Virus record (IMG/VR): IMGVR_UViG_3300029797_000018
Span: 1-25,102 of that record
Length of the DNA stretch: 25,102 nt
Strand: one strand, 5' to 3'
Origin: a virus
The position numbers and the translations under genes were made by a program. Numbering within the stretch: position 1 is the stretch's first letter; each line of letters starts with the position of its first letter. The notes under the pieces were generated by a model that was not told the DNA's origin, searched no databases, and saw only the letters and a list, made by a program, of their open reading frames with translations. Positions 2,844-24,704 of the stretch are shown one piece after another.

Positions 2844-2853
2844 TATTTTTTTT
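2821..2853 (+). terminator. rho-independent terminator overlapping the stop codon
   Basis: TTGCGA (2821-2826) pairs with TCGCAA (2834-2839) around a CAAAAAA loop, followed within a few bases by a run of eight T. The hairpin lies at the 3' end of the NadM-like gene and would end the first operon. It is immediately followed by a promoter-like site. Confidence 0.6.
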
Positions 2854-2860
2854 GTAAAAT
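2850..2860 (+). promoter_or_regulatory. promoter-like TTTGTAAAAT
   Basis: A -10-like TAAAAT at 2855-2860, preceded by TTTG, lies about 35 bases before the next gene. The same string appears before other transcription units in this window, which is the main support. No good -35 is visible because upstream is the T-run of the terminator. Confidence 0.4.
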
Positions 2861-2896
2861 AAATATATTGAAATTAAGATATTTAAAGGAAATATG

Positions 2897-3793: not shown

Positions 3794-3828
3794 GATAAAT
3801 AACGTAAACTAATAAATGGAGTGAAGTT

Positions 3829-4269: not shown

Positions 4270-4281
4270 AAAGGATTAAAT

Positions 4282-4677: not shown

Positions 4678-4701
4678 TTTAAATTTTCAAAAAAAAGATG
4701 T

Positions 4702-4902
4702 TTTTTTTGTAAAATAATCTGAAAATTGGAATAAATAAATATGTGAAAAATGATTCACATTTAGTCTAAAAGACTTTAAAAAATTTAATAAAAAAGTATG
4801 AAAATCTATAAAAAAATGTAGAATGCCATACGAGACCCAAGGTCTTTAAACAATAAAATAACTTAACCCAGTCTATCGGACTTTAAACAAGGAGACTTAA
4901 AA
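4702..4902 (+). promoter_or_regulatory. structured leader of the gp32-like gene: promoter, four hairpins, ribosome site
   Basis: A promoter-like TTGTAAAAT (TAAAAT 4710-4715) begins a 190-base untranslated leader. It holds ATGTGAA/TTCACAT (4741-4747/4754-4760), AGTCT/AGACT (4763-4767/4771-4775), AGACC/GGTCT (4833-4837/4841-4845) and AGTC/GACT (4870-4873/4879-4882). Each of the last three is followed by TTTAAA. AGTCT at 4870-4874 could instead pair with AGACT at 4893-4897, which overlaps the AAGGAGA ribosome site. T4 gp32 represses its own mRNA by binding a structured leader; a similar role here is inference. Confidence 0.6.
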
Positions 4903-5898
4903 ATGGCTATTAATCTTAGAAAAACTGTAAACAAAGACAAACTCAAAGCAAAATTCGAAGCAGAATCCCAAAGTGGAAATCAGGGTCCAAGTGATTTTCT
5001 TCCATATTTTAAACTAAAAAATAAAGATTCTCTTACTATCAGATTTCTTTCTGATGCTAATCCAAATAACCAAGATTTTTTCACATATATTGAAGAAGTT
5101 TTCAATTTTTCTGGAAAAAATATGAAGTTCTCGGGCCTTGCAAAAGATTGTCCGTCTTCAAAGATTGCTTATGATTTTTTTGCAGAAGCAAAAGCTCTCG
5201 GAGAGGAAACACCGGAAGGAAAAGAAGTTCGTGATAAAGCTTTGAAATTTTATAAAAAGAGAAAATATTTGGCAAATGCGTATATTGTTGATGCGCCAGA
5301 TTATTTTTGGGTGGAAGCTGGACTTGATCCGGAAAAAATTGAAGACCGGGTAAAAGTAGTTTCTCTTCCCAAAAAGGTTTATGAAACTATCAAAGATACT
5401 GTCATGGATGAAGATTTTGATGAAGTTGAATTTTATAATTTTGGTGACGATGTTGTAAATTTCAAACTTACTGTTAAGAAGAATGCTGGTGGATATAATG
5501 ATTATACTTCTTCTAAGTTTGAAATTAAACCAAAAGAATTGGATATTGAAGACGACGCTATTGATATTATTGCTGAAAGTTTGAAGGATCTTTCTACTTT
5601 ATTTAAATCACATTCATTGGATGAATTCAATGAAGCGATTGATATTGAACTTAATGGTGAAGATGAAGATGAAGGTGAAGAAGAAAAGGTAACAAAAACT
5701 TCTTCTACTGAAAATACATCTACTACCGATGAAGGTAAAATGGAAACATCTTCAAATGATAATGATGAATCAAATGAGTGTTCTTCTGAAGAGCAAGAGC
5801 TAACAAATGAGGATTCTTCTGGTGAAGAAGGTGTTAAAGATATCAAATCCTTGAGAAAAGGTATTTTGACTAAGCTTAAAATTGAAGAAGAAGCATAA
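4903..5898 (+). CDS. 32: single-stranded DNA-binding protein, T4 gp32-like
   Basis: The protein coats single-stranded DNA during phage replication, recombination and repair. The layout matches gp32. A short basic N-terminal arm (LRKTVNKDKLKAKF, residues 5-18) serves cooperativity. The core contains SLTIRFLSD (43-51), DCPSSKIAYDF (82-92) and the basic KFYKKRKYLANAYIVDAPDYF region (115-135). A long acidic Ser/Glu/Asp-rich tail starts near residue 250, the part that recruits partner proteins in T4. It has 331 residues against 301 in T4. The zinc ligands of T4 gp32 are not conserved: the expected CPxC reads CPSS at 83-86, and C83 is the only core cysteine. A strong AAGGAGA ribosome site lies 8 bases before ATG 4903. 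Codons are richer in C and G than in neighbours, fitting high expression. Confidence 0.88.
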   Translation: MAINLRKTVNKDKLKAKFEAESQSGNQGPSDFLPYFKLKNKDSLTIRFLSDANPNNQDFFTYIEEVFNFSGKNMKFSGLAKDCPSSKIAYDFFAEAKALGEETPEGKEVRDKALKFYKKRKYLANAYIVDAPDYFWVEAGLDPEKIEDRVKVVSLPKKVYETIKDTVMDEDFDEVEFYNFGDDVVNFKLTVKKNAGGYNDYTSSKFEIKPKELDIEDDAIDIIAESLKDLSTLFKSHSLDEFNEAIDIELNGEDEDEGEEEKVTKTSSTENTSTTDEGKMETSSNDNDESNECSSEEQELTNEDSSGEEGVKDIKSLRKGILTKLKIEEEA

Positions 5899-5930
5899 TT
5901 AAGCTTTAATTAAAAAAGGGAAGATATAAT

Positions 5931-6212
5931 ATGGCTACGTTGACACGTGAAGAAGATATAGAACGTCAAGAAAAAGGAATTCCTTTATTTAAAGAAAAAA
6001 AAATAAAGGATGGTTGGGTTTTAAATCTTGTAAAACAAAATGAAGCGATATTATCAACTTCCCTTTATGATCCTTCTGGAAGGGTTGTGGAAAATAAAGT
6101 TTTTTTAACACAGGAAGATTCTGATATACAGAAATTTAGAGAGTATATTTCTTTATTTGAAGACAACCCAGAAAAAAATTATAGAAAAATGTCCAAAATA
6201 AAAAATAGGTAA
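5931..6212 (+). CDS. hypothetical protein, 93 aa, downstream of the ssDNA-binding gene
   Basis: I do not recognise this gene. It begins 32 bases after the gp32-like stop with a GGGAAG ribosome site. The small charged product has an N-terminal acidic helix (REEDIERQEKG), a strand-rich middle and a basic C-terminus (YRKMSKIKNR). Its position suggests co-expression with the ssDNA-binding protein. In T4 the neighbours of gene 32 are replication and late-transcription factors (59, 33), but no similarity to them is visible. Confidence 0.7.
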   Translation: MATLTREEDIERQEKGIPLFKEKKIKDGWVLNLVKQNEAILSTSLYDPSGRVVENKVFLTQEDSDIQKFREYISLFEDNPEKNYRKMSKIKNR

Positions 6213-6215
6213 TAT

Positions 6216-6596
6216 ATGGTTGAAAACATAAAATCAAAATCAACTTCTACTACAGAAAAAGTTGATTTAAAAACTGTTTATACATTTGTTTTTGGAAGAA
6301 ATATCTATACTGTAAGAATGAGTGACATTAAAAAAATAACTCTTCTTGGTCATAATTTTATAGATAAAAAAGATGACAAAGAAGAAGTTACTAAAACGTT
6401 ATATATTTTTTCAGTTGTAGGTAATCAAATAACTGGTATAAATGATCAAGATTCAGATGGAAATGCACGTCCCATGTATGAAACAATAATGGAAGTAAAA
6501 TCAGAAGAAGATGATTATTCTTCTCTTTACAAAATTTATGAAGATCTTGTTATTAAATGGGACAGATATTTGCAATTGGTACAACAATCACGTTAA
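6216..6596 (+). CDS. hypothetical protein, 126 aa, third gene of the gp32-like operon
   Basis: I do not recognise this gene. ATG 6216 starts 3 bases after the previous stop, with TAGG as a weak ribosome site, so translation is probably coupled. The N-terminal 15 residues are Ser/Thr-rich. A strand pattern follows (VYTFVFGRNIYTVRM), then an acidic helix near the end (DYSSLYKIYEDLVIKWDRYLQ). Its 3' end overlaps the convergent leftward gene by 9 bases. Confidence 0.7.
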   Translation: MVENIKSKSTSTTEKVDLKTVYTFVFGRNIYTVRMSDIKKITLLGHNFIDKKDDKEEVTKTLYIFSVVGNQITGINDQDSDGNARPMYETIMEVKSEEDDYSSLYKIYEDLVIKWDRYLQLVQQSR

Positions 6597-7405: not shown

Positions 7406-8038
7406 ATGACAGAAAAAAAAGCACAAAAATACACAGATATTTGGTCTATAAAAGATGAAGTTATAGAAAAAAATAAAGAAGTAAAGAAAAAGGTTTTTGA
7501 TATTCCAGATGAGGATTTAGTATCAAATAATGTAAAAGGTTTTGTTATTAATGAAGTTGGTAATATTGTTGCTCAATTTGGCTTTTTTGTTGAAACAGAA
7601 GGCAAAGAAAACATTGAATTGAGAGTGAGTCAGGATGGGTTTCTTGCAGCAGTATATAATAAACCAACAAATATTATATTAGGTTATGGACATCCTTTAG
7701 GTTTTAATGGAATGATTGATGCTAAACAAGCAAATATTTTACATTTGGGGCCAGATCAAACTAATGGTGATCAATTACTCATTAATATTCAAAATGACGA
7801 ACAATTACAAAAACAAGGTATTGTTTGTATGATAAGAGATGTTGATGTTATGACTGAAATCTTACCAGATGAAGTAGCTGAAGATTTTAATGAATCTCTG
7901 ATTGATGCAAAAGACCAAGTTATGGATTTAAATGAAATAGAAGAAGCATTTAATAATTATTTGAAACGAATTTATACACTTTTGGGTGAAACTTATAATA
8001 CAAAAGATAATGTGGAGGAAGATGATGTCCAAAAGTAA
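7406..8038 (+). CDS. hypothetical phage protein, 210 aa
   Basis: I do not recognise this gene. ATG 7406 follows AAAGGA. Residues 1-40 are charged and helical. The middle (about 50-150) is a strand-rich domain with a Gly-rich turn (LGYGHPLGFNGMIDAKQAN), and the C-terminal 50 residues form an acidic helix pair. No catalytic signature is evident. Its last 14 bases overlap the next gene, which starts inside it, so the two proteins are probably made in linked amounts. Confidence 0.7.
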   Translation: MTEKKAQKYTDIWSIKDEVIEKNKEVKKKVFDIPDEDLVSNNVKGFVINEVGNIVAQFGFFVETEGKENIELRVSQDGFLAAVYNKPTNIILGYGHPLGFNGMIDAKQANILHLGPDQTNGDQLLINIQNDEQLQKQGIVCMIRDVDVMTEILPDEVAEDFNESLIDAKDQVMDLNEIEEAFNNYLKRIYTLLGETYNTKDNVEEDDVQK

Positions 8039-16965: not shown

Positions 16966-17039
16966 TGCGGAGTGGAGCAGTATGGCAGCTCGCAAGGCTC
17001 ATAACCTTGAGGTCAGGGGTTCAAATCCCTTCTCCGCTA
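16966..17039 (+). tRNA. tRNA-fMet (CAT), initiator-like
   Basis: Acceptor GCGGAG/CTCCGC carries an unpaired T1-T72 end, the hallmark of bacterial initiators. D stem GAGC/GCTC gives the A11-U24 pair of initiators, and the anticodon loop is CTCATAA. The TGGAGCAG and AGCTCG stretches match bacterial fMet tRNA. The 3 G-C pairs of the anticodon stem are only partly kept. No CCA is encoded; a pseudoknot element follows after one base. Confidence 0.88.
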
Positions 17040-17040
17040 G

Positions 17041-17111
17041 AGCAATTAATCATTTACCTTCACGCGGTATTGCTTGTAAGTAGGAATTTAATTCCGAAAC
17101 TAAAAAATGAT
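17041..17111 (+). ncRNA. tRNA-trailing pseudoknot element, copy 1
   Basis: Order of parts: A AGCAAT (17041-17046), B ATCATTT (17049-17055), C ACC-TTCACGC-GGT (17056-17068), A' ATTGCT (17069-17074), spacer TGTAAGTA, D GGAAT/ATTCC (17083-17095), GAAACT, and B' AAATGAT (17105-17111). A pairs with A', and B, inside A, pairs with B' outside it, so the fold is a pseudoknot. Six other copies keep the pairing with different bases. It lies between the fMet and Ser tRNAs. Confidence 0.75.
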
Positions 17112-17117
17112 ATTTAT

Positions 17118-17204
17118 GGAAGCTTACTCTAATTGGCAAGAGGTCTGACTTGAAATCAGGTGTAGGTGTAACAGCCGATCGGGGTTCGAATCCCTGAGCT
17201 TCCG
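17118..17204 (+). tRNA. tRNA-Ser (TGA)
   Basis: Acceptor GGAAGCT/AGCTTCC, D stem CTCT/AGAG, anticodon loop CTTGAAA, long variable arm as in class II tRNAs, T arm GGGGTTCGAATCCCT, G73. No CCA is encoded; copy 2 of the pseudoknot element follows within two bases. Confidence 0.92.
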
Positions 17205-17205
17205 C

Positions 17206-17282
17206 ACTCGATGATGATAATTTACCTTTACGTGGTATCGAGTATAAGTAACTTTTTTAAAAAGTGAAACTGAAAAATTATC
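17206..17282 (+). ncRNA. tRNA-trailing pseudoknot element, copy 2
   Basis: A ACTCGAT pairs with A' ATCGAGT (17206-17212/17237-17243). B GATAATTT pairs with B' AAATTATC (17216-17223/17275-17282). C is ACC-TTTACGT-GGT (17224-17236). D is ACTTTT/AAAAGT (17251-17265), followed by GAAACT. Every stem differs from copy 1 but pairs perfectly. Confidence 0.75.
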
Positions 17283-17306
17283 AAAAAAATGAAATTTTTA
17301 AAATGT

Positions 17307-17389
17307 CCGTAGGCTGGGTATAGGTGAACCCAAGAGACTGTAAATCTCCCGCTTCGGCTGTGATGGTTCAATTCCGTCCCTGCGGACCA
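17307..17389 (+). tRNA. tRNA-Tyr (GTA)
   Basis: Acceptor CCGTAGG/CCTGCGG, D stem GGGT/ACCC, anticodon loop CTGTAAA, class II variable arm with a GC-TTCG-GC hairpin, T stem GATGG/CCGTC, A73 and encoded CCA. The first anticodon-stem pair is a mismatch. Confidence 0.9.
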
Positions 17390-17423
17390 AATATTTGATT
17401 TTATTAGAAAATAAGGAAATATA

Positions 17424-17771
17424 ATGCGACTTGAAACATTGACTGAAAAAAGAAAACTGAATTATACCGGCATCTTTTTTAGAGATGGAACTCATATGAC
17501 TTGGAATTACGGATTTCCTTTGGAAAGACCTGATGGGGTTTCAGAAGGTGATAAAACCAAAGTAAAAGTAATCGGTGGATATGAAGATGATCAAGTTAAA
17601 TGTCTTGTTGTAGAGTGGGAAAACCACAAAAATCAACCAAATGGTAAAACGTTGCTTCATATAACAACCGAAGTCCGAAATGGTGGAAAACCTGTAATGA
17701 GTGGAAAAAGAGCAACAAAATACGGATACGATAAAATTACACCTTACTATATAGACGGTGTTTGGAAGTAA
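17424..17771 (+). CDS. hypothetical protein inside the tRNA cluster, 115 aa
   Basis: I do not recognise this gene. ATG 17424 follows AAGGAAAT. The product is a soluble, mixed-charge protein with a strand-rich N-terminal half (YTGIFFRDGTHMTWNYGF) and a basic C-terminal half (SGKRATKYGYDKI). It lies between tRNA-Tyr and a CAU tRNA, so it may be made from the same transcript. Codon use is slightly richer in G and C than in the left part of the window, shared with other tRNA-cluster genes. Confidence 0.7.
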   Translation: MRLETLTEKRKLNYTGIFFRDGTHMTWNYGFPLERPDGVSEGDKTKVKVIGGYEDDQVKCLVVEWENHKNQPNGKTLLHITTEVRNGGKPVMSGKRATKYGYDKITPYYIDGVWK

Positions 17772-17798
17772 AGTTTTTATTTGAAAAAATAATTTTGA

Positions 17799-17870
17799 TG
17801 CGACGTAGAGAAGCGGTATCTCGTTAGACTCATGATCTAAAGAACGGGTGTTCGATTCACCCCGTCGCTA
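17799..17870 (+). tRNA. tRNA with anticodon CAT (Met or Ile2)
   Basis: Acceptor GCGACG/CGTCGC with a T1-T72 mismatch, D stem GAGA/TCTC, anticodon stem TTAGA/TCTAA with loop CTCATGA, T arm GGGTGTTCGATTCACCC, A73. Base 37 is G, whereas Met and Ile2 tRNAs normally have A. No CCA; a pseudoknot element abuts directly. Confidence 0.82.
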
Positions 17871-17940
17871 AAGCAATGAATCATTTACCTTCACGCGGTA
17901 TTGCTTGTAAGTAGGAATTTAATTCCGAAACTAAAAATGA
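17871..17940 (+). ncRNA. tRNA-trailing pseudoknot element, copy 3
   Basis: Nearly identical to copy 1. A AAGCAAT pairs with A' ATTGCTT (17871-17877/17900-17906). B TCATTT pairs with B' AAATGA (17881-17886/17935-17940). C is ACC-TTCACGC-GGT, D is GGAAT/ATTCC, then GAAACT. It abuts the tRNA discriminator base with no gap and ends 4 bases before tRNA-Cys. Confidence 0.75.
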
Positions 17941-17944
17941 AATT

Positions 17945-18020
17945 GACGATGTAGCCAAGTTGGTAAGGCAATGGATTGCAACTCCATTAATCTCTGGTTC
18001 GAACCCAGGCATCGTCTCCA
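17945..18020 (+). tRNA. tRNA-Cys (GCA)
   Basis: Acceptor GACGATG/CATCGTC, D stem GCC/GGC, anticodon stem ATGGA/TCCAT with loop TTGCAAC, T stem TCTGG/CCAGG, T73 and encoded CCA. Confidence 0.93.
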
Positions 18021-18046
18021 AATTTACTAAAAAAAGGACAAAAACA

Positions 18047-18107
18047 ATGTTTAAAATGTTTAGAAAGTCCTATCTTAACTCAAAATAATTTTGTGTTGGG
18101 GTAGGAC
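18047..18107 (+). other. mini-ORF plus long hairpin between tRNA-Cys and tRNA-Phe
   Basis: AAGGA followed by ATG 18047 opens a 13-codon frame ending at 18088. It overlaps a hairpin in which GTCCTATC (18067-18074) pairs with GGTAGGAC (18100-18107), with an inner CAAAA/TTTTG stem. Translation of the mini-ORF would disrupt the stem. It may be a leader-type control or an RNA processing spacer; no more can be read. Confidence 0.3.
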
Positions 18108-18130
18108 GGTAATAAAATAATCCATCTTAC

Positions 18131-18209
18131 CCCAACTTAGCTCAGATTATGGTAGAGCGTTCGGTTGAAGCCCGAAGCGTCGCTGGTTCAACTCCAGCAG
18201 TTGGGGCCA
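18131..18209 (+). tRNA. tRNA-Phe (GAA)
   Basis: Acceptor CCCAACT/AGTTGGG, D stem GCTC/GAGC, anticodon stem TTCGG/CCGAA with loop TTGAAGC, T stem GCTGG/CCAGC, encoded CCA. The discriminator base is G. Confidence 0.93.
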
Positions 18210-18219
18210 TTTTTATTTT

Positions 18220-19079
18220 TCAATTAAAGTATTCTTGTAATGTAGTTAGATTATTTAATGTTTCAATTAAATCATATTTTGATTGAGTATCACAAATGGC
18301 TTTAAATTCATTTCCAAAAACAAATCGGATTTCATCACCTTTGTCTGGATTATCTGCTAAGACACATTTCATCTTTTCTTCGTCATTGCCCCACCAGTAT
18401 CCTTTAATTTCTAATGTAATGTCAAATTGTGGTAATAATATGTCTGGAGTATATCTTTTAATTTTATCACCTATAGAGTAAGTTAACATTCCTTCTTTTT
18501 TGATTTTTTTCCATTCAATACCAAATTCATTAAATTTTAAAACACAATCTCGTTCCCATCTTCCTTGAACAAAAACATCATCTATTTTATACCATTTACA
18601 TCTTCCACCAGTATTATGCAAAGATTGTCTTTCACTTACTCGTTGTCTTGCTTCTTCGCCCATTTTTGAAACTTTGTAAGTACCATTAGAAATCTGACGT
18701 TGAAATGTTCTTGAAACATTTTTACTATTTTTTTTAACCCTTGTATCTGTTTCGTTTGTTAATCCTTTATTCCAACTTTGTCTGTTTCCATCTTTAAAAC
18801 CTATGTTTGGATCATGATTTTTTCCTTCACCATGTGATCTCCAAATATGTGTAGAAATACCTTTTTTTGAATATTCCTTTCCACAGTATGGACATTTGTA
18901 CTTTCATTTGGTTGTTTCCAAGATTCATTAATTTGGGTAATACTTGTTATTTCTTTTTTTCTTTGATTGATTTTGATATTTCTGTTTTTAAAACATGCTT
19001 TTGAATTTATATGTTTTTTGATATTATTGACTGTTATTGAAATCCCACATTCGGGACAAATTACGGTTTCACGTTTCAT
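18220..19079 (-). pseudogene. frameshifted homing endonuclease with zinc fingers and PD-(D/E)XK domain
   Basis: Read leftward from ATG 19079. The N-terminal part (MKRETVICPECG, KKHINSKAC) carries a C2HC finger. It loses frame near 18899-18906. The adjacent frame, which has a TGA just before that point, continues with a second finger (YKCPYCGKEYSKKG, HIWRSHG), a basic linker (SWNKGLTNETDTRV) and a nuclease domain. In the last 147 codons, RYTPDILLPQFDITLEIKGY holds P73-D74 and E85-I-K87, the PD-(D/E)XK catalytic set. Such proteins cut tRNA-cluster or intergenic DNA and spread by homing. One inserted base would restore a single frame, so this is a decayed gene or a sequencing error. From codon 1 at 18663 the nuclease half stays open. 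Confidence 0.72.
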
Positions 19080-19282
19080 ATTATTGACCTTTATTGTATA
19101 ATTGTTATTAGTATGAAGGACAGCCAATCTATTGACCTTGTTGGTTTTTCAACTATTTGGCGACAGTTGAAATTACTTCATACTTCCTATTTGTATTTAT
19201 ACGCTTTTATCTTATTTAAAAGGAAAAAAGTCAATTTTATGAAAATAAATTTGTGTTAAATATTGAGAAAGGAATACCAAAC
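19080..19282. promoter_or_regulatory. intergenic region with TTGTATAAT and a 7-bp hairpin
   Basis: ATTGTATAAT (TATAAT 19097-19102) lies on the plus strand, and TATTGACCTT occurs twice nearby. TTCAACT and AGTTGAA near 19147-19170 form a hairpin. AAAGGA at 19268-19273 is the ribosome site of the next gene. No further gene is seen. Confidence 0.35.
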
Positions 19283-19552
19283 ATGTATGCTTTAATTGGT
19301 GAAATAAACGATGTATATCAAGACAGACCCGGTGGACCGTTTAAGGATCATTGGAGTGAAGTAATTATTGCATTATTTACAACCGAACAGTTAGCAAATG
19401 AGTATATTAAAAAAAGTAGAGTTCCTGCCCCGTATTATACTAAAATGAATGTAACAAAATATTTTGAGGACGAGTCACTTTTATCCAACTGTCAAGTAGC
19501 AAGAGTAGAAAAATATAAAGAACCACAATATGAAATCAATCCTAAGTTGTAA
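19283..19552 (+). CDS. hypothetical small phage protein, 89 aa
   Basis: The frame is open from GTG 19253, but AAAGGA at 19268-19273 sets the start at ATG 19283. The product begins MYALIGEINDVYQD and contains a helix typical of small accessory proteins (TTEQLANEYIKK). It is soluble and slightly acidic, with no known function. Similar small proteins that begin with a short strand and a TEEQA-type helix are common in phages, but I cannot name a family. Confidence 0.68.
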   Translation: MYALIGEINDVYQDRPGGPFKDHWSEVIIALFTTEQLANEYIKKSRVPAPYYTKMNVTKYFEDESLLSNCQVARVEKYKEPQYEINPKL

Positions 19553-19560
19553 TTATATTG

Positions 19561-19566
19561 TATAAT
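19561..19566 (+). promoter_or_regulatory. promoter -10 TATAAT
   Basis: ATTGTATAAT lies directly after the stop codon of the preceding gene and 33 bases before the next ATG. It belongs to the TTGTATAAT group repeated across the tRNA region. No -35 is evident. Confidence 0.4.
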
Positions 19567-19598
19567 ATTAATTATAACGCACAATGAAGGAGACATAA

Positions 19599-19789
19599 AT
19601 GACTACTGTATTACAGCAAGATGGTGCCCCCCTTTAAAAAATGCAATTGAGTGGGTATCTGAACAAAGAGAAAAATTTCCTGATAAAAAAACTGCAAAAA
19701 TTGTTGATGAGGCATGTATCAAATTTGATTTAACCCCAAAAGATTCAGAATTTTTGGTTCGGTTTTGGAAAGAACAAAAAAACAATTAA
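19599..19789 (+). pseudogene. small gene with a frameshift at a C6-T3-A6 run
   Basis: ATG 19599 has a GAAGGAGA ribosome site and a promoter. The frame gives MTTVLQQDGAPL and then a stop. Beyond the run at 19627-19641, the frame one base back stays open for 50 codons (KNAIEWVSEQREKFPD to FLVRFWKEQKNN) and reads as an ordinary soluble helical protein. One extra C, or two fewer, would join the halves. This may be a homopolymer sequencing error, a real mutation, or programmed -1 frameshifting on the slippery run. The protein is unrecognised. Confidence 0.65.
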
Positions 19790-19832
19790 AATATAATTTT
19801 TATAACTTTATTTTAAAAAAATAAAAAAATAC

Positions 19833-19872
19833 TTGTAAAAAATGAAAAACTTTTGTATAATAGTTATAAATA
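19833..19872 (+). promoter_or_regulatory. promoter: TTGTAA-17-TATAAT followed by TATAAATA
   Basis: TTGTAA (19833-19838), 17-base spacer, TATAAT (19856-19861), then TATAAATA (19865-19872). Flanks (AAATGAAAAA, TTTTG) match the promoter at 16701-16740. It drives the small gene at 19913. Confidence 0.6.
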
Positions 19873-19912
19873 AAAACAATGAAACCACAAACTCCTAAAA
19901 AGGAAGAATAAA

Positions 19913-20050
19913 ATGAATATTACAATCGGTCAAGAAAATTTGAAACGTAATGAAGATAATATTCTTTCGACTGCGACTGCGCAAGATATGCCCGCGGCCA
20001 AGAAACATAATGAACCATCGTTGGGGTTTTTGGAGGATAAAGGCGTATAA
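19913..20050 (+). CDS. 45-aa small protein
   Basis: A complete small unit: promoter, AAAGGAAG ribosome site, ATG 19913, 45 codons ending TAA, then a strong terminator. The product MNITIGQENLKRNEDN... ends in SLGFLEDKGV and has an alanine-rich middle (STATAQDMPAAKK). No family is recognised. Its private promoter and terminator show it is expressed as a monocistronic gene. Confidence 0.65.
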   Translation: MNITIGQENLKRNEDNILSTATAQDMPAAKKHNEPSLGFLEDKGV

Positions 20051-20077
20051 ACACACACTTTATCATAAAAGAATAAC

Positions 20078-20116
20078 AAAAACCCCATCAGACGAAAGTT
20101 TGTTGGGGTTTTTTAG
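20078..20116 (+). terminator. strong rho-independent terminator
   Basis: AAAACCCCA pairs with TGGGGTTTT, with an inner AGAC-GAAA-GTTT stem and a run of six T. It ends the 45-aa gene transcript. Confidence 0.8.
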
Positions 20117-20144
20117 TTTATAAACAAAATAATTTAAAAAAAGG

Positions 20145-20173
20145 TTGACTTCTTTAAAATTATTTGGTATAAT
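20145..20173 (+). promoter_or_regulatory. near-consensus promoter TTGACT-17-TGG-TATAAT
   Basis: TTGACT (20145-20150), a 17-base spacer ending in an extended -10 TGG, and TATAAT (20168-20173). It is the best sigma70-type promoter in the window and fires into the Lys tRNA segment. Confidence 0.8.
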
Positions 20174-20203
20174 ACAAAAATAATGAAAAAAGGAAAATAA
20201 AAA

Positions 20204-20272
20204 ATGAAACAAGTTATGAAACTATAACTCTGTGTTTGAAAACCAATTGATTACAAATTGCTTGCACGGAGT
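20204..20272 (+). promoter_or_regulatory. seven-codon leader ORF and bulged stem before tRNA-Lys
   Basis: AAAGGA is followed by ATG 20204 and the peptide MKQVMKL, stop at 20225. A stem then forms between ACTCTGTG (20227-20234) and CACGGAGT (20265-20272), with an inner CAATT/AATTG stem. Two of seven codons are Lys AAA, and tRNA-Lys (TTT) is the next gene. The set-up recalls attenuation, but no terminator alternative is visible. Confidence 0.4.
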
Positions 20273-20297
20273 ATAAACTAAACAAAGAATATATTTT

Positions 20298-20373
20298 GGG
20301 CAAGTGGCGCAACCGGGAGCGCAACGGACTTTTAATCCGTAGGTTGTGGGATCGTACCCCACCTTGCTCACCA
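20298..20373 (+). tRNA. tRNA-Lys (TTT)
   Basis: Acceptor GGGCAAG/CTTGCTC, D stem GCGC/GCGC, anticodon stem ACGGA/TCCGT with loop CTTTTAA, T stem GTGGG/CCCAC, encoded CCA. The T loop ATCGTAC departs from the usual TTCGANC. Confidence 0.9.
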
Positions 20374-20378
20374 CCAAG

Positions 20379-20447
20379 TCAAACAAAGTAATTCACCTTT
20401 ACGTGGTGTTTGATATAAGTAACTGAAAAGTGAAACTAAGAAATTAC
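20379..20447 (+). ncRNA. tRNA-trailing pseudoknot element, copy 4
   Basis: A TCAAAC pairs with A' GTTTGA (20379-20384/20408-20413). B GTAATT pairs with B' AATTAC (20388-20393/20442-20447). C is ACC-TTTACGT-GGT (20395-20407). D is ACT-GAAA-AGT (20422-20431), then GAAACT. It lies 5 bases after the encoded CCA of tRNA-Lys and ends just before the ribosome site of the next gene. Confidence 0.75.
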
Positions 20448-20461
20448 GAAAGAGAGATGAA

Positions 20462-20854
20462 ATGACAATTATATATTGTTGTAAATGCGAAAGAGAAGTA
20501 AATACAGAAAAAAAATTTGGTTCATATGTGTATCCACATAGACCAGATCTTAAACGTAAAACCTTCTTTGTTTGTCAAAACTGTGGAAATCATGTTGGAA
20601 TGAACACAAAAAGTGGAAGACCTTTAGGTGTAATCCCAACAAAAGAAATTCGTTCTTTTAGACAAACTATTCATGGATTAATTGATCCATTGTGGCAAGA
20701 TGGAAAAATCTCTCGCAGTAAATTATATTCGGAATTATCCAAAAAATTAGGATATGAATATCATACTGCTAATCTTAGAAGCCTTGATGAATGTAGAAAA
20801 GTTATAAGAATCGCAATTAAGATGCGTGGATTGAAATACGGATATAGAAAATAA
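20462..20854 (+). CDS. DUF3268-type zinc-finger protein, 130 aa
   Basis: Two Cys pairs, YCCKCE (5-10) and FVCQNCGNHVG (36-46), form a zinc ribbon. They are followed by SGRPLGVIPTKEIRSFRQTI, IDPLWQDGKISRSKLYSEL and LRSLDECRKVI. This series (RPLG, then helix, PLW, R..Y..L, then a C near the end) is that of the DUF3268 zinc-finger domain found in many phages, of unknown function. The ribosome site GAGAG lies in the tail of pseudoknot copy 4, so folding of that RNA could affect translation. Confidence 0.75.
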   Translation: MTIIYCCKCEREVNTEKKFGSYVYPHRPDLKRKTFFVCQNCGNHVGMNTKSGRPLGVIPTKEIRSFRQTIHGLIDPLWQDGKISRSKLYSELSKKLGYEYHTANLRSLDECRKVIRIAIKMRGLKYGYRK

Positions 20855-20857
20855 ATT

Positions 20858-20886
20858 TTGCTTTTTTTGAAAAATTATCTTATAAT
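20858..20886 (+). promoter_or_regulatory. promoter TTGCTT-17-TATAAT
   Basis: TTGCTT (20858-20863), a 17-base spacer and TATAAT (20881-20886), 19 bases before tRNA-Pro. Both boxes and the spacing are good. Confidence 0.7.
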
Positions 20887-20905
20887 GTTAATGTATAAAA
20901 AATTA

Positions 20906-20980
20906 CGAGTCGTAGCCAAGTGGTATGGCGCATGCTTTGGGAGCATGAAATCGCAGGTTCGATCCCTGCCGACTCGACCA
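20906..20980 (+). tRNA. tRNA-Pro (TGG)
   Basis: Acceptor CGAGTCG/CGACTCG, D stem GCC/GGC, anticodon stem CATGC/GCATG with loop TTTGGGA, T stem GCAGG/CCTGC, A73 and CCA. Confidence 0.95.
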
Positions 20981-20992
20981 AGATTTGATAAT

Positions 20993-21086
20993 GTTCGGTA
21001 AAACTATATATGGTGGCCACCATATATAGATGATGTTCGAGTGAACGTGGTTAAAATGGGTGTTCGACTCACTCTTACCGAGCCCA
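20993..21086 (+). ncRNA. non-canonical tRNA-like RNA with His-type ends and a 26-bp palindrome
   Basis: The ends are those of a tRNA: G-1 plus TTCGGTA pairs with TACCGAG plus C73, then CCA, the extra G-1:C73 pair typical of tRNA-His. A T arm GGGTG-TTCGACT-CACTC (21058-21074) is present. The D and anticodon arms are replaced by a perfect 13+13 palindrome (21004-21029) and an ATGTTC-GAGT-GAACGT hairpin (21033-21048). No anticodon loop can be identified. A normal tRNA-His lies at 24540. It may be a decayed tRNA, an insertion, or a tRNA mimic. Confidence 0.6.
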
Positions 21087-21114
21087 AATTTTAAATAATA
21101 CATATGAGGTTATA

Positions 21115-21381
21115 ATGGGAGACGAATTAACAAAAGTTGAACAGATTAAACAAATCAGAAACCAATATGGTGTTAGTCTCCATACTGCTAAGAAAATTTT
21201 TGAAAAAGAGGAATTAAGACATCGCATTAGTGAAATTGATTTGAATGATCATGAAAAAGTAAAAAGTGGTATAAATAGAAAAATAAAGACATTTTTGGGG
21301 CACGGGAATGCTTGGGGTGTTCACCTCCCTTGCACGGAGGATATCAGTAGGGTTCAAATCCCTAGTGCTCCAGTGTGTTGA
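21115..21381 (+). CDS. small helical protein whose frame runs through tRNA-Ala
   Basis: ATG 21115 has TGAGG 5 bases upstream. The first 60 residues look like a real helical protein (KVEQIKQIRNQYGVSLHTAKKIFEKEELRHR). The frame then continues through the whole of tRNA-Ala, without a stop, to TGA 21379. The last 27 residues therefore encode tRNA sequence and are unlikely to be an evolved protein end. The natural stop was probably lost, or the tRNA was inserted near it. No family is recognised. Confidence 0.5.
   Translation: MGDELTKVEQIKQIRNQYGVSLHTAKKIFEKEELRHRISEIDLNDHEKVKSGINRKIKTFLGHGNAWGVHLPCTEDISRVQIPSAPVC
21297..21372 (+). tRNA. tRNA-Ala (TGC)
   Basis: Acceptor GGGGCAC/GTGCTCC, D stem GAAT/GTTC, anticodon stem CCTCC/GGAGG with loop CTTGCAC, T arm TAGGG/CCCTA, A73. 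No CCA; pseudoknot copy 5 abuts it. The gene lies inside the open frame of the preceding gene. Confidence 0.88.
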
Positions 21382-21445
21382 GACAACTACCTTTACGTGG
21401 TAACACACATAAGTAATTATTTTTAATAATGAAACCAAAAGTTGT
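21373..21445 (+). ncRNA. tRNA-trailing pseudoknot element, copy 5
   Basis: A GTGTGTT pairs with A' AACACAC (21373-21379/21402-21408). B ACAACT pairs with B' AGTTGT (21383-21388/21440-21445). C is ACC-TTTACGT-GGT (21389-21401). D is ATTATT/AATAAT (21416-21430), then GAAACC. It starts on the base after the tRNA-Ala discriminator. Confidence 0.78.
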
Positions 21446-21463
21446 TAACTTGAATTAAAAAAA

Positions 21464-21536
21464 TAGAGAATTACAGTTGGAAAATACATCGTTTATTTGG
21501 AAAACTAAAAAATTTCCAACGCTTTTATCTCTTTTT
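21464..21536 (+). ncRNA. small hairpin RNA family, copy 1
   Basis: AGAGA (21465-21469) pairs with TCTCT (21528-21532) and GTTGGAAA (21476-21483) with TTTCCAAC (21513-21520). Between the stems are ATTACA on the left and GCTTTTA on the right; the apical part begins ATACATCG. The outer stem is followed by TTTT, so the element could act as its own terminator. Confidence 0.6.
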
Positions 21537-21570
21537 GAAAAAAAACTTTTAAAAAACGAAAAAAATATTG

Positions 21571-21576
21571 TATAAT
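21571..21576 (+). promoter_or_regulatory. promoter -10 TATAAT between the two hairpin RNAs
   Basis: TATTGTATAAT ends at 21576, about 10 bases before the second hairpin RNA, and would transcribe it directly. No clear -35. Confidence 0.5.
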
Positions 21577-21583
21577 GAATAAA

Positions 21584-21666
21584 TAAGAGAATTACAGTTA
21601 GAAAATACATCGAATAAACCATTAATTTATTTACCATGAAAGTTTCTAACGCTTTTATCTCTTTTT
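21584..21666 (+). ncRNA. small hairpin RNA family, copy 2
   Basis: AAGAGA pairs with TCTCTT (21585-21590/21658-21663) and GTTAGAAA with TTTCTAAC (21597-21604/21643-21650). Compared with copy 1, the G-C pair in the inner stem is A-T here, a compensatory change. GAATTACAG, ATACATCG and CGCTTTTATCTCTTTTTGAA are shared. A promoter lies just upstream. Confidence 0.62.
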
Positions 21667-21694
21667 GAAAAATAAAACAAGGAATATGATTAAA

Positions 21695-21829
21695 ATGAAT
21701 ACACTTAATAATAACACAATTTGTATTGAAAACAATGACAATATTATTGTGACTATTCATGATCATATTCTAAATCTCATTGATATGAATGATGAACGTA
21801 TGTTGGAACGTAATACCAACAATCTGTAA
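21695..21829 (+). CDS. 44-aa small acidic protein
   Basis: ATG 21695 follows AAGGA with 11 bases; in-frame ATG 21686 is too close to it. The product is Asn/Asp-rich with a helical end (DHILNLIDMNDERMLERN). It is unrecognised. Its N- and C-terminal style resembles the 45-aa gene at 19913, which also stands alone between RNA elements. Its stop codon overlaps one arm of a set of alternative hairpins. Confidence 0.5.
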   Translation: MNTLNNNTICIENNDNIIVTIHDHILNLIDMNDERMLERNTNNL

Positions 21830-21869
21830 GTGATATAAAAAAATCCCTTACAGCGTATTTGTAAGGGAT
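21824..21869. terminator. alternative hairpins; terminator for leftward transcripts
   Basis: ATCCCTTAC (21843-21851) pairs with GTAAGGGAT (21861-21869). On the minus strand this 9-bp stem is followed by seven T, a good leftward terminator. CTGTAAG (21824-21830) can pair instead with CTTACAG (21847-21853), an exclusive alternative on the plus strand. Confidence 0.5.
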
Positions 21870-21941
21870 AAAAACACATCAAGTAACATCCTTTTTTAGA
21901 ATCCCTCAACAAATACATTTTTGAAAATTAAAATAATTTTT

Positions 21942-22016
21942 GTCCCGCTCGTCTAGTGATTAGGACATCGGACTTTCGATCCGACAACAAGGGTTTGATT
22001 CCCTTGCGGGATACCA
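21942..22016 (+). tRNA. tRNA-Glu (TTC)
   Basis: Acceptor GTCCCGC/GCGGGAT (G-T end pair), anticodon stem TCGGA/TCCGA with loop CTTTCGA, T stem AAGGG/CCCTT with loop TTTGATT, A73 and CCA. The CGTCTAGTG D region is typical of Glu tRNA. Confidence 0.93.
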
Positions 22017-22032
22017 TTTTTTCATTCCTTTA

Positions 22033-22096
22033 TATAATGTTAGTATAAAGAGTTGAAAATACATAGACAAGAGTTCAATTCTCTTATGGAACTCCA
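22033..22096 (+). pseudogene. promoter and truncated tRNA-like remnant
   Basis: TATAAT (22033-22038) precedes GAGTT (22050-22054), which pairs with AACTC (22090-22094). A full T arm AAGAG-TTCAATT-CTCTT (22069-22085) and a final CA follow. D and anticodon arms are absent. The 5' part TTGAAAATACAT resembles the hairpin RNA family core. It is a decayed tRNA or a minimal tRNA-like RNA. Confidence 0.45.
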
Positions 22097-22136
22097 TTTT
22101 TATTGTTTTTTTGACCTTTTGATTAAACATATATGT

Positions 22137-22142
22137 AAAATA
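22137..22142 (+). promoter_or_regulatory. promoter-like ATGTAAAATATAG
   Basis: TAAAAT preceded by TATG lies about 40 bases before the homing endonuclease gene and matches the TGTAAAAT group of the left half of the window. TTGACC upstream at 22111 is a possible -35, with a spacer slightly too long. Confidence 0.4.
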
Positions 22143-22182
22143 TAGAATGCGTTAACTTTTTCTATAAAGGAAAGGATATGAA

Positions 22183-23007
22183 ATGAAAATATGTTTATAT
22201 TGTAAAAAAGATATTACATATAAAACGGATAAAAGAGCTAAGTTTTGTAATAGTTCTTGTGCTGCAAAATACAATAATCCAAAAAGAAAGCACTCAAATG
22301 AAACAAAACAAAAAATAAGTGATGCGGCCATCAAAAACGATGCAGCAAAAAATTTTAGAAATAGTTTGAATAAGGGAGGGTTAAAACAGTGTTCTGTATA
22401 TTTCAAAAAGTGTAAAGTTTGTGGTTTATTATTTACAGCATCTTCAAAAATAAAAAATAGAAAATGTTGTTCTAAAAAATGTATTAAAATTCAAAGTGGT
22501 GGTTATAGAGAAGGATCTGGTAGATCCCATAGTGGATATTTTAGAGGAATTTTTTGTGGTTCTACTTATGAATTAGTTTGGGTGATTTATAGATTAGATC
22601 ACAATTTGATTGTAAAAAGATTTGAAGGATTTTTAACAGATGGTAAAATTAAATATTATCCGGATTTCTTAATAGAGAATAAAATTATAGAAATAAAAGG
22701 TTATCACACTAAATCGGTTGATAAAAAAACAAAATTGGCAATTGATAGTGGATATGAAATAGAATTAAAATATAAAAAAGATTTAAAGACAGAATTTGAT
22801 TGGGTAAATAATAATTACACTTTTGATCATATTAAAGAATTATATGATGATTATAAACCAACATATACTTATAAATGTGATTTCTGTGGTGAAGTGTTTA
22901 ATACTGAAAAAGAAAGAAAAACAAAATCTAAATTTTGTTCTCAAAGTTGTGCTGGAAAAGGACATACTGGCGGTAACAAAAAAGGTATTAACCAGTATAC
23001 AAAGTAG
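22183..23007 (+). CDS. zinc-finger homing endonuclease of the PD-(D/E)XK type
   Basis: A selfish DNA endonuclease. There are three four-cysteine zinc-binding modules: C4/C7/C22/C26, C77/C80/C96/C100 and C232/C235/C252/C256. Between the first two is a basic HSNETKQKISDAAI helix of the NUMOD3 type. The nuclease domain has GSGRSHSGYFRGIFCGSTYE (111-130), LVWVIYRLDH, and the active site YYPDF (158-162) with E170-I-K172. This layout is that of free-standing phage homing endonucleases, which cut phage lacking the gene and convert the site. AAAGGA lies 6 bases before ATG 22183. All motifs look intact, unlike the decayed relative at 18220. It sits between tRNA genes, a common target region. Confidence 0.8.
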   Translation: MKICLYCKKDITYKTDKRAKFCNSSCAAKYNNPKRKHSNETKQKISDAAIKNDAAKNFRNSLNKGGLKQCSVYFKKCKVCGLLFTASSKIKNRKCCSKKCIKIQSGGYREGSGRSHSGYFRGIFCGSTYELVWVIYRLDHNLIVKRFEGFLTDGKIKYYPDFLIENKIIEIKGYHTKSVDKKTKLAIDSGYEIELKYKKDLKTEFDWVNNNYTFDHIKELYDDYKPTYTYKCDFCGEVFNTEKERKTKSKFCSQSCAGKGHTGGNKKGINQYTK

Positions 23008-23017
23008 CATAAATTTT

Positions 23018-23093
23018 CGATCCGTATCTCAGTTGGTAGAGAGCACGACTGATAATCGTGAGGTCGGTGGTTCAAACCCACCCGGATCGACCA
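23018..23093 (+). tRNA. tRNA-Ile (GAT)
   Basis: Acceptor CGATCCG/CGGATCG, D stem TCTC/GAGA, anticodon stem CACGA/TCGTG with loop CTGATAA, T stem GGTGG/CCACC, A73 and CCA. Confidence 0.94.
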
Positions 23094-23099
23094 TAATAA

Positions 23100-23172
23100 T
23101 GGCATCTAGCAATAATGGCATTGCGTCAGCCTGTTAAGCTGAAGGGACTGGGTTCGATCCCCAGGGTGCCAG
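23100..23172 (+). tRNA. tRNA-Asn (GTT)
   Basis: Acceptor TGGCATC/GGTGCCA, D stem GCAA/TTGC, anticodon stem TCAGC/GCTGA with loop CTGTTAA, T stem CTGGG/CCCAG, G73. No CCA; pseudoknot copy 6 abuts it. Confidence 0.93.
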
Positions 23173-23245
23173 CGCTCATCAAACTAATTGCCTCCACGTG
23201 GCGTTGAGTGGTAATTATCCTTTAAAGGATAAGCTAAATATTAGT
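23173..23245 (+). ncRNA. tRNA-trailing pseudoknot element, copy 6
   Basis: A CGCTCA pairs with A' TGAGTG (23173-23178/23205-23210, one G-T). B ACTAAT pairs with B' ATTAGT (23183-23188/23240-23245). C is GCC-TCCACGT-GGC (23190-23202), a paired change from ACC/GGT. D is TTATCCTT/AAGGATAA (23215-23232). The usual GAAACT reads GCTAAA here. It is the most divergent complete copy. Confidence 0.72.
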
Positions 23246-23268
23246 AAATTAATTTTTGAAAAAAATTC

Positions 23269-23346
23269 GGCCATGTAACTCAGTTGGTTCAGAGTGCTAC
23301 CCTGTCAAGGTAGAAGCCGTCGGTTCAAGCCCGATCATGGCCGCCA
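23269..23346 (+). tRNA. tRNA-Asp (GTC)
   Basis: Acceptor GGCCATG/CATGGCC, D stem ACTC/GAGT, anticodon stem CTACC/GGTAG with loop CTGTCAA, T stem GTCGG/CCGAT, G73 and CCA. Confidence 0.95.
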
Positions 23347-23350
23347 TAAT

Positions 23351-23896
23351 TTATTGTTTTATAATGGAAATTTGAGAATATTTTGCACTTTTGATATTCT
23401 TAGTTATGGTGTTTATTTTAACAGATATCATCATATCATTAGCAATATCAGAAACAAATGATTTAAGACTGTCAACATTATAACCTTTTTGAAATGTACC
23501 TCTATTGGTTTTAAAACCATCATTAAATTTGGTCCATTTTTCATTTCCTGCTTTATTTATTTCATTAGCAGTTCTGGTTGTAATATAAGCAGTACCATTT
23601 GTTTTTAGTAATTTGATAATCTGTTTAACTACATTTATACGCTCTTGTAAATCACTAATTACATTAATAACATAGTTACAAATGATTGTATCATAACCAG
23701 ATTTAAAATTACAATGTGGATGATAATATTTATCATATCCGTCGACCATAATACCTTTGGATAATAAGAAGTCAAGGTCTTTACCTTTACCACATCCAAA
23801 ATCAAGAATTGTACCAATAAGAAGACTTTTTTGATATAGTTCTCTTGTAGGAGCTGAAACTTTTTTTCTTGATATTGCAGTTTTTTCAGAATTCAA
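23351..23896 (-). CDS. class I SAM-dependent methyltransferase
   Basis: Motif I ILDFGCGKGKDLDFL (30-44) is the SAM-binding glycine loop. VDGYDKYYH (51-59) carries the acidic end of strand 2, and YDTIICNYVINVI (68-80) is the motif IV region. The later helix ERINVVKQIIKLLKTNGTAYITT matches the usual strand-5 region. The length of 181 residues is that of a bare Rossmann methyltransferase with a short C-terminal extension. The substrate cannot be read. It is read leftward between rightward tRNAs; AAAGGAAAC lies upstream of ATG 23896. The location invites a tRNA-modifying role, but a DNA or small-molecule target is equally possible. Its end is 5 bases from tRNA-Asp. Confidence 0.78.
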   Translation of the reverse strand: MNSEKTAISRKKVSAPTRELYQKSLLIGTILDFGCGKGKDLDFLLSKGIMVDGYDKYYHPHCNFKSGYDTIICNYVINVISDLQERINVVKQIIKLLKTNGTAYITTRTANEINKAGNEKWTKFNDGFKTNRGTFQKGYNVDSLKSFVSDIANDMMISVKINTITKNIKSAKYSQISIIKQ

Positions 23897-23917
23897 TGTT
23901 TTTGTTTCCTTTTTTAA

Positions 23918-23944
23918 TTGATTTTACAAAAAATATGGTATAAT
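23918..23944 (+). promoter_or_regulatory. promoter TTGATT-15-TGG-TATAAT
   Basis: TTGATT (23918-23923), a short 15-base spacer, an extended -10 TGG and TATAAT (23939-23944). It drives the 77-aa gene and probably the following tRNAs. Confidence 0.6.
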
Positions 23945-24000
23945 AATTAAAAGATTAAATGTAACACAAACTTAATATAAATTTAAAATAAGGAAAAAAA

Positions 24001-24234
24001 ATGGAAAGAACAATTGTAAATTTGGGTGGTTATGGTGATTTTGATATGCCTTATGTAAATTCTACTTGGATGTCTCCAGATGGAATGGACCCCGAAGATG
24101 CAAAAGAGATTATTCAGAAAGTAGAACATGATAATTCAAATACAGATAGACTTGATAAAGCTGTTAAACAGTTGAAGCAAGCTGGATTTGTAAAAGTCCA
24201 AAGTATGGAGTGTTTGGTTGGTGGAAATCTTTAA
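24001..24234 (+). CDS. hypothetical small protein, 77 aa
   Basis: I do not recognise this gene. ATG 24001 follows AAGGA with a promoter 57 bases upstream. The N-terminus MERTIVNLGGYGDFDMPYVN is Gly-rich, followed by DGMDPEDAKEIIQK and a basic/acidic helix (TDRLDKAVKQLKQAGF). It is soluble. It is the first gene of a transcript that continues into tRNA-like RNAs. Confidence 0.65.
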   Translation: MERTIVNLGGYGDFDMPYVNSTWMSPDGMDPEDAKEIIQKVEHDNSNTDRLDKAVKQLKQAGFVKVQSMECLVGGNL

Positions 24235-24241
24235 CAAATAA

Positions 24242-24339
24242 TGTCCTGAACGTCCAATGAGAGGTTGTGCTCTCGGGCAGGAAGACTCTCACAACAGAGT
24301 CGAGGTTTATGGGAGGTTCGAACCCTCCCAGGACAACCA
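24242..24339 (+). ncRNA. tRNA-like RNA with complementary (kissing) hairpin loops
   Basis: Acceptor TGTCCTG/CAGGACA, T arm GGAGG-TTCGAAC-CCTCC, A73 and CCA are as in a tRNA. The D position carries GAGAG-GTTGTG-CTCTC (24259-24274), extended by GTCC/GGGC. The anticodon position carries GACTCT-CACAAC-AGAGTC (24284-24301). The six-base loops GTTGTG and CACAAC are perfect complements. No ordinary 7-base anticodon loop exists; opening one stem pair would expose CAC (Val). A tRNA mimic with a kissing-loop core fits better than a decoding tRNA. Confidence 0.6.
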
Positions 24340-24348
24340 ACAATATAT

Positions 24349-24426
24349 GCCAGTGTAGCTCAGTTGGTTTAGAGCGCTGCTCTCATAAGGCAGAGGTCAT
24401 AGGTTCAATTCCTATCACTGGTACCA
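24349..24426 (+). tRNA. tRNA with anticodon CAT (elongator Met or Ile2)
   Basis: Acceptor GCCAGTG/CACTGGT (G-T end), D stem GCTC/GAGC, anticodon stem CTGCT/GGCAG with loop CTCATAA, T stem ATAGG/CCTAT, A73 and CCA. The paired acceptor end and A37 fit an elongator Met or lysidine-type Ile tRNA. Confidence 0.92.
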
Positions 24427-24539
24427 TTTTTAAGTTAGTAAGGGTACTTGTAGAAAGTAGACTTGTATTTATTAAAAAATTTTTGTAGGAACAGTCATAC
24501 CTAAAAGTGGTATGTGGATTGAAACAGTTTAAATTATAT
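24427..24539 (+). other. intergenic gap with one small hairpin
   Basis: CATACC (24496-24501) pairs with GGTATG (24509-24514), followed by GATTGAAACAG. AGTAG and ACTTGT occur twice upstream. No gene, promoter or tRNA is recognised. Confidence 0.3.
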
Positions 24540-24617
24540 GGTGTGGGTAGGCAAAATGGCTAAGCCGCGGGATTGTGGCTCCCGTGATTGCGAGTTCAAA
24601 CCTCGTCCCTCACCCCA
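24540..24617 (+). tRNA. tRNA-His (GTG)
   Basis: G-1 (24540) opposite C73 is the His-specific extra pair. Acceptor GTGTGGG/CCCTCAC has one T-T mismatch. Anticodon stem CGGGA/TCCCG has loop TTGTGGC; T stem GCGAG/CTCGT; encoded CCA. Confidence 0.92.
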
Positions 24618-24704
24618 GGAACGAATGTAATTCACCTTTTCGTGGTGTCAACTATAAGTAATCTTTTTTTTAATACTAAGAGAGATGAAACTAAGAAATT
24701 ACAT
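24618..24704 (+). ncRNA. tRNA-trailing pseudoknot element, copy 7 (incomplete)
   Basis: B ATGTAATT pairs with B' AATTACAT (24625-24632/24697-24704). C is ACC-TTTTCGT-GGT (24634-24646). D is ATCTTT/AGAGAT (24661-24666/24681-24686, one G-T), then GAAACT. Spacer TATAAGTA is kept. Stem A cannot be found (no partner for GTCAAC), so this copy may be damaged. It ends 5 bases before tRNA-Val. Confidence 0.65.

Follow-up and report, generated by a model that had tools for sequence, protein, structure and literature searches.

Candidate P4-bearing HDV-like ribozymes at the 3' ends of tRNAs in a phage tRNA array

What is the RNA element that recurs directly behind transfer RNA (tRNA) genes in the virus record IMGVR_UViG_3300029797_000018? 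This record is a tailed-phage genome fragment of 25,102 bases, all of which was analysed and which is referred to below as the window. An earlier note on its sequence had described seven copies of the element directly 3' of tRNAs, and all seven were found within 1 nucleotide (nt) of the places given (Table 1). The earlier note read the element as a simple H-type pseudoknot built from helices A, B, C and D. Our analysis gives strong support to a different topology: the elements form the nested double pseudoknot of the hepatitis delta virus (HDV) ribozyme, in the order P1-P2-P3-P1'-P4-P2', in which A corresponds to P1, B to P2, C to P3 and D to P4. Judged from fold, core and position, they are very probably self-cleaving HDV-like ribozymes with a P4 domain that would cut the tRNAs free.

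The position of the elements is tightly fixed. HDV-like ribozymes are reported to cut at the first P1 nucleotide, with a core made up of the P2-P3 base together with L3 and J4/2 (PMC4908430). Each of the seven window copies starts flush with the tRNA end called by ARAGORN or at most 4 nt past it, when a 1-nt overshoot by ARAGORN is allowed, and its predicted cleavage site lies within 5 nt of the tRNA 3' end (ARAGORN-based offsets between -1 and +4). In ribozyme 1 the parts follow each other as GAGCAAT (P1), TA (J1/2), ATCATTT (P2), ACC (P3), TTCACGC (L3), GGT (P3') and ATTGCTT (P1'), and then as G, TAAGTA, GGAATTTAATTCC (P4), GAAA, C, TAA(A) and AAATGAT (P2').

Relatives were collected from viral contigs by two scans with the P3-L3-P3' core plus TAAGTA, in which P1, P2 and J4/2 were left free (32 and 36 stretches), and by a scan that required GAAA but not the C next to it (62 stretches). 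A fuller pattern run over 257 billion bases (257 Gb) of prokaryote genomes gave one stretch. A covariance model, the check that had been proposed for the element, was built from 32 sequences, to which the window contributed five; run over the fetched loci, it found 78 elements. The seven window copies were all among them, with no eighth in the window. A descriptor of the fold likewise performed beyond chance, matching 63 times in 718 kb of loci and never after block shuffling of the sequence.

The pairing of P1 and P2 was evaluated with partners taken from fixed sequence motifs, so the alignment gives the fold no advantage. The score was 9.24 for P1/P1' compared with 3.75 for shuffled partners, and 8.25 for P2/P2' compared with 4.92; neither observed value was reached by any of 200 shuffles. 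The pairing of B with B' proposed earlier was thereby confirmed, and that of A with A' held apart from the copy at 24618, in which P1 is lost (3/7 pairs, random mean 2.6) while P2, P3, the core and the catalytic C are retained. In a free register, P2 formed a mean of 6.2 base pairs over 51 non-redundant sequences, against 2.2 for shuffled partners with a maximum of 2.9 in 1000 shuffles. Of the cells in the model alignment 81.1% were paired, while shuffles gave 52.7%; covariation scored 0.677, compared with 0.206 in shuffles (0/500 reached it) and 0.09-0.23 when the partners were slid; these covariation and pairing tests are not fully corrected for relatedness among the sequences. Both-side changes were present in all four helices and in P1.1.

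The P1.1 pair was absent from the earlier scheme. It joins position 3 of L3 to the base before TAAGTA, and was read as U-A in 45 sequences, C-G in 22 and G-C in 1, with one exception (motif-anchored test, P = 6e-13, not phylogeny-corrected). Since this covariation is predicted by the HDV topology, it counts for the HDV fold. A pure H-type pseudoknot was rejected, the topology being the nested fold with the further P1.1 pair.

The catalytic core leads to the same assignment. In L3, bases U20, C24 and G25 were invariant in 51/51 non-redundant sequences, partly by construction as some of L3 had been set in the scan patterns; they are also present in all seven window copies, which were originally found without a pattern. 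The position that opens J4/2, i.e. the C of GAAAC, is C in every row of the 78-match alignment that reaches that column. Because the model was built from sequences with this C and the 51 sequences were filtered on it, the unbiased evidence for the C consists of the two scans in which it was left free, a register check and the printed alignment. In those two scans, reads of A, G or U were shifted registers of C-bearing elements, bar chance cases. The J4/2 junction varies as CUAA, CUGA and CCAA (CYRA). P4 is a covarying helix with three modelled pairs and 94.7% of cells paired, and the distance from P1' to the catalytic C is about 17-70 nt in the P4-type matches. AAGUA before P4 and GAAA after it occur in nearly all of the 51 sequences, again partly by construction. 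AGUA opposite GAA is the sequence of the bulged-G (loop E, sarcin-ricin) motif, and the AAGUA/GAAA module may form an internal loop where P4 begins. The conserved bases listed earlier as unpaired can thus be assigned to parts of the fold: TTYACGY is L3, AAGTA...GAAA is the module at the P4 foot, and C plus TAA is the catalytic C with J4/2. GAAACT as a single unpaired motif did not stand, as it splits into the P4-flanking GAAA and J4/2. The divergent copy at 23174 has a two-pair P1.1 (CC/GG) as in HDV, lacks the AAGTA/GAAA module and carries one U-U mismatch in P1. From fold, core, position and precedent together, we infer that the elements are HDV-type ribozymes that would cleave themselves.

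Do the elements belong to a known class? No Rfam family reached its gathering score on them. The nearest, RF02682 (HDV-F-prausnitzii), has the same topology, L3 and GCUAA junction; it aligned end to end with the copy at 23174 (28.8 bits, gathering 44, E 7.7e-4 for 201 bases) and in register, sub-threshold, with that at 20378 (26.3 bits, E 0.0014 for 91 bases), and was not listed for the other five copies at E up to 10. RF03077 (RT-2 RNA) has the AAGUA-hairpin-GAAA module in its consensus, but it is not a ribozyme family, and its match here covers the hairpin only (13.9 bits, not significant). The mammalian CPEB3 ribozyme is similar in having UUCACGU as its L3 and, in P1.1, a single Watson-Crick pair together with U-U; its P4, host and context are different.

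The closest precedent is the theta class, described from gut Caudoviricetes as minimal HDV-like ribozymes (Kienbeck et al. 2024, PMC10879173). Theta ribozymes linked to tRNAs cleave in vitro and are dead as C-to-U mutants, and CCA is encoded by 4.5% of their tRNAs (PMC10879173). The window elements share with them the HDV fold, the catalytic C at the start of J4/2, the CUAA junction, the site at phage tRNA 3' ends and linked tRNAs that mostly lack CCA, and would be expected to work in the same way. They could accordingly be regarded as ordinary theta ribozymes whose P4 hairpin is merely a long L4, which would rival their separation as a variant and leave their HDV-like identity at tRNA ends untouched. 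The shared place, core and proposed role favour this view, as do the CUAA junction, found also in drz-Mtgn-1 (PMC10879173), and P4-less, theta-like matches of the same descriptor in related contigs that also carry the P4 type (L069, L014:10525, L041:5834). However, theta ribozymes are by definition minimal and without P4, and L4 was shortened to tighten the published motif (PMC10879173), whereas P4 here is a covarying helix with the conserved AAGUA/GAAA module. The elements were therefore not filed as theta ribozymes, and we consider their identity with that class possible but rather unlikely. Theta ribozymes also differ from the present case in that seven copies with mixed CCA status are found here in one array, and that relatives follow other structured RNAs. 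We call the elements a P4-bearing variant of the known tRNA-linked HDV-like ribozymes, set apart from theta by the published definition. The earlier statement that no described family fits was thus wrong in kind, since HDV-like topology, L3, P1.1 and J4/2 are known and theta was published in 2024 (PMC10879173), and right in a narrow sense, given the Rfam result and a published tRNA-linked class defined without P4. No description of a P4-bearing variant was found in the literature searched, which did not extend to subscription papers.

The CCA status of the tRNAs bears on what the elements do. In the window, an element stands behind 5/5 tRNAs without encoded CCA (Met, Ser, Met, Ala, Asn) and 2/15 with it (Lys, His) (P = 0.0014). 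The same trend, although weak, was seen over all fetched loci, with an element at 11/72 CCA-less and 6/182 CCA-encoding tRNAs (P = 0.0014), a count that includes the window tRNAs and, among the 6/182, two likely chance matches. The tRNA-Trp matches in L007 and L020 look like chance folds. A strict rule of a ribozyme at every CCA-less tRNA is true in the window and fails in relatives, where 61 CCA-less tRNAs had no match; of these, 13 belong to the huge-phage locus L074, which lacks the element, and one is the window tRNA-Asn, whose P1 mismatch fails the strict test. ARAGORN undercounts tRNAs in such comparisons, as Rfam puts tRNAs flush with further elements (L037, L034).

These facts suggest the following mechanism. 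The ribozyme would fold in the transcript of the tRNA array once its P2' strand had been made, and would cut at its own first nucleotide, just 3' of the discriminator base (or C74) of the preceding tRNA. The attack would be made by the 2'-OH of the last tRNA nucleotide, with the first J4/2 base (the C of GAAAC) as general acid, leaving a tRNA with a 2',3'-cyclic phosphate and a ribozyme with a 5'-OH. After removal of the cyclic phosphate, a host or phage CCA-adding enzyme would complete the tRNA end. The ribozyme would thereby take the part of RNase Z for CCA-less tRNAs, and the CCA-encoding neighbours would rely on ordinary trimming. Of the functions guessed in the earlier note, self-cleavage and tRNA 3' processing are those that fold, core and position favour, and given the precedent a role in cutting tRNA 3' ends is likely; activity, cut site, end repair and benefit to the phage are predictions of this scheme. 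The His copy has probably decayed, and the loss of its P1 is what would be expected if the encoded CCA had made the ribozyme dispensable.

Several observations weigh against this account. Several relatives follow immediately upon a CCA that the tRNA gene encodes (L034 Glu, L039 Tyr), so the element is not restricted to CCA-less tRNAs, and a better general statement is that it would cut at the mature tRNA end. The intact Lys element would cut 4 nt past the encoded CCA, hence trimming would still be needed. Enzymes for cyclic-phosphate healing and CCA addition were not found in the 25-kb window fragment; a CCA-adding enzyme is present in 3/20 related records, too few for an enrichment test.

Two further explanations deny the tRNA-cutting role. 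The structure might be a folded plug against 3' exonucleases, or a ligand binder, that does not cleave; a tRNA with a stable pseudoknot behind it could be shielded from trimming, and the copy at 24618 retains most of the structure without P1. Yet such a plug would be better placed past the mature end than flush with it, and it leaves the conserved catalytic C, the HDV-type L3, P1.1, J4/2 and the register at the tRNA end unexplained, which makes this explanation very improbable. Tying the ribozyme to a repetitive mobile element that lands at tRNA 3' ends, and that it would serve instead of the tRNA, has some appeal because tRNA 3' ends are common integration sites, and because the ribozymes behind the two initiator-like tRNA-Met genes (17040 and 17871) are nearly identical. 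In one GOLLD RNA lineage, moreover, the ribozyme is absent from L120 after the same hairpin that precedes it in L057 and L063. However, the element is only about 70 nt long and contains no coding gene, its P1 and P2 are almost wholly different between copies, and its relatives also stand behind hairpins, a transfer-messenger RNA (tmRNA) and GOLLD; we give this explanation, too, very little probability.

The cutting ribozyme may not be confined to tRNAs, as most relatives are not adjacent to one. In L006 a phage tmRNA (1351-1717; RF00023, E 2e-23 in a short search), found by Rfam and missed by ARAGORN, is followed by a ribozyme at 1718; its acceptor strands GGGGUCG/CGACUCC are followed by the discriminator A and then by the ribozyme, with no CCA between. 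The end of the GOLLD model lies 4 nt (G020), 6 nt (G046) and 9 nt (G050) before a ribozyme start, the GOLLD matches of G020 and G046 being below gathering with E under 1e-19. As G020 and G046 are close relatives, the GOLLD evidence amounts to two lineages. Two of the GOLLD records G044, G045, G050, G019, G046 and G020 (L109-L114) have a ribozyme about 140 nt from the 3' model end. An obligatory ribozyme for GOLLD was rejected, since in L120 GOLLD and the hairpin occur without one. Non-redundant elements without tRNA numbered 44, the tmRNA and GOLLD cases among them. In these, the 40 nt ahead of the predicted cut folded better than controls (mean z -1.62 compared with -0.32, P = 1.3e-5), and a median of 2 unpaired bases separates the hairpin end from the predicted cut. 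A structured RNA that ends at the cut is the property common to the tRNA, tmRNA, GOLLD and hairpin contexts. Drawn from few independent cases, a general role in phage RNA 3'-end formation is plausible, and there is about an even chance that the P4-bearing ribozyme is a general maker of the 3' ends of phage structured RNAs.

Other structured RNAs were seen in the related loci. A ribozyme also occurs upstream of the ROOL RNA in L116 and in L106, in the same orientation and at distances of 93 and 311 nt; two such cases are too few to interpret. In L024, three Hatchet ribozymes occur in a phage tRNA region (2512-6369) together with a P4-type HDV-like ribozyme (3071), and a RAGATH-9 RNA lies beyond it (7826-7984). 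The huge phage LR745206 matched in tRNA only, with no ribozyme in 634,780 bases, and a BLAST search of 'phages' with a ribozyme gave two matches, both by chance.

The window itself encodes a gp32-like single-strand binding protein (PHROG 1192), and other proteins show distant similarity to proteins from large myoviruses and from Campylobacter and Vibrio phages. From 15.8 kb onward its + strand carries at least 20 tRNA genes. The endonuclease genes among the tRNAs suggest homing endonucleases in the array.

Table 1 Features of the window discussed in the text, with the parts of ribozyme 1
Feature	Position	Strand	Remarks
tRNA-Met, initiator-like	16966..17039	+	1x72 mismatch, A11:U24; no encoded CCA; ARAGORN
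HDV-like ribozyme 1 (predicted)	17040..17111	+	directly after tRNA-Met
Ribozyme 1, P1	17040-17046/17069-17075	+	
Ribozyme 1, P2	17049-17055/17105-17111	+	
Ribozyme 1, P3	17056-17058/17066-17068	+	
Ribozyme 1, L3	17059-17065	+	
Ribozyme 1, P1.1	C17061-G17076	+	
Ribozyme 1, AAGTA	17078-17082	+	
Ribozyme 1, P4	17083-17095	+	between AAGTA and GAAA
Ribozyme 1, GAAA	17096-17099	+	
Ribozyme 1, catalytic C	17100	+	
tRNA-Ser(UGA)	17118..17205	+	no encoded CCA; ends G73-C74
HDV-like ribozyme 2 (predicted)	17206..17283	+	after tRNA-Ser; catalytic C 17270; J4/2 CUGA
tRNA-Met, initiator-like	17799..17870	+	1x72 mismatch, A11:U24; no encoded CCA
HDV-like ribozyme 3 (predicted)	17871..17942	+	after tRNA-Met; catalytic C 17931; nearly identical to ribozyme 1
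Endonuclease gene	18220-18663		phage endonuclease I-like; between tRNAs
tRNA-Lys(UUU)	20298..20373	+	CCA encoded
HDV-like ribozyme 4 (predicted)	20378..20447	+	starts 4 nt past the CCA of tRNA-Lys; catalytic C 20436
tRNA-Ala(UGC)	21296..21373	+	no encoded CCA; ARAGORN end 21373 overshoots by 1 nt
HDV-like ribozyme 5 (predicted)	21373..21446	+	after discriminator A of tRNA-Ala; catalytic C 21435; J4/2 CCAA
tRNA-like sequence	22024-22093		29.1 bits, just at Rfam gathering score; uncalled by ARAGORN
Endonuclease gene	22183-23007		HNH/NUMOD3-type; between tRNAs
tRNA-Asn(GUU)	23100..23173	+	no encoded CCA
HDV-like ribozyme 6 (predicted)	23174..23245	+	divergent; after tRNA-Asn; catalytic C 23234
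tRNA-His(GUG)	24541..24617	+	CCA encoded
Ribozyme 7 (predicted)	24618..24702	+	after tRNA-His; probably decayed; catalytic C 24691

On this reading, there would be a second design of phage tRNA-trimming ribozyme, one that carries P4. It escapes Rfam and also, going by the published definition of theta ribozymes, the search made for them, so that such ribozymes are undercounted. The window array, with a ribozyme at 5/5 CCA-less tRNAs and none at 13/15 CCA-encoding ones, would offer a natural test of ribozymes replacing the host 3'-processing enzyme. If it is true that relatives form the ends of GOLLD cages and of a phage tmRNA, ribozyme-made ends would be general among the non-coding RNAs of phages, and the true 3' ends of GOLLD would have to be looked at afresh.

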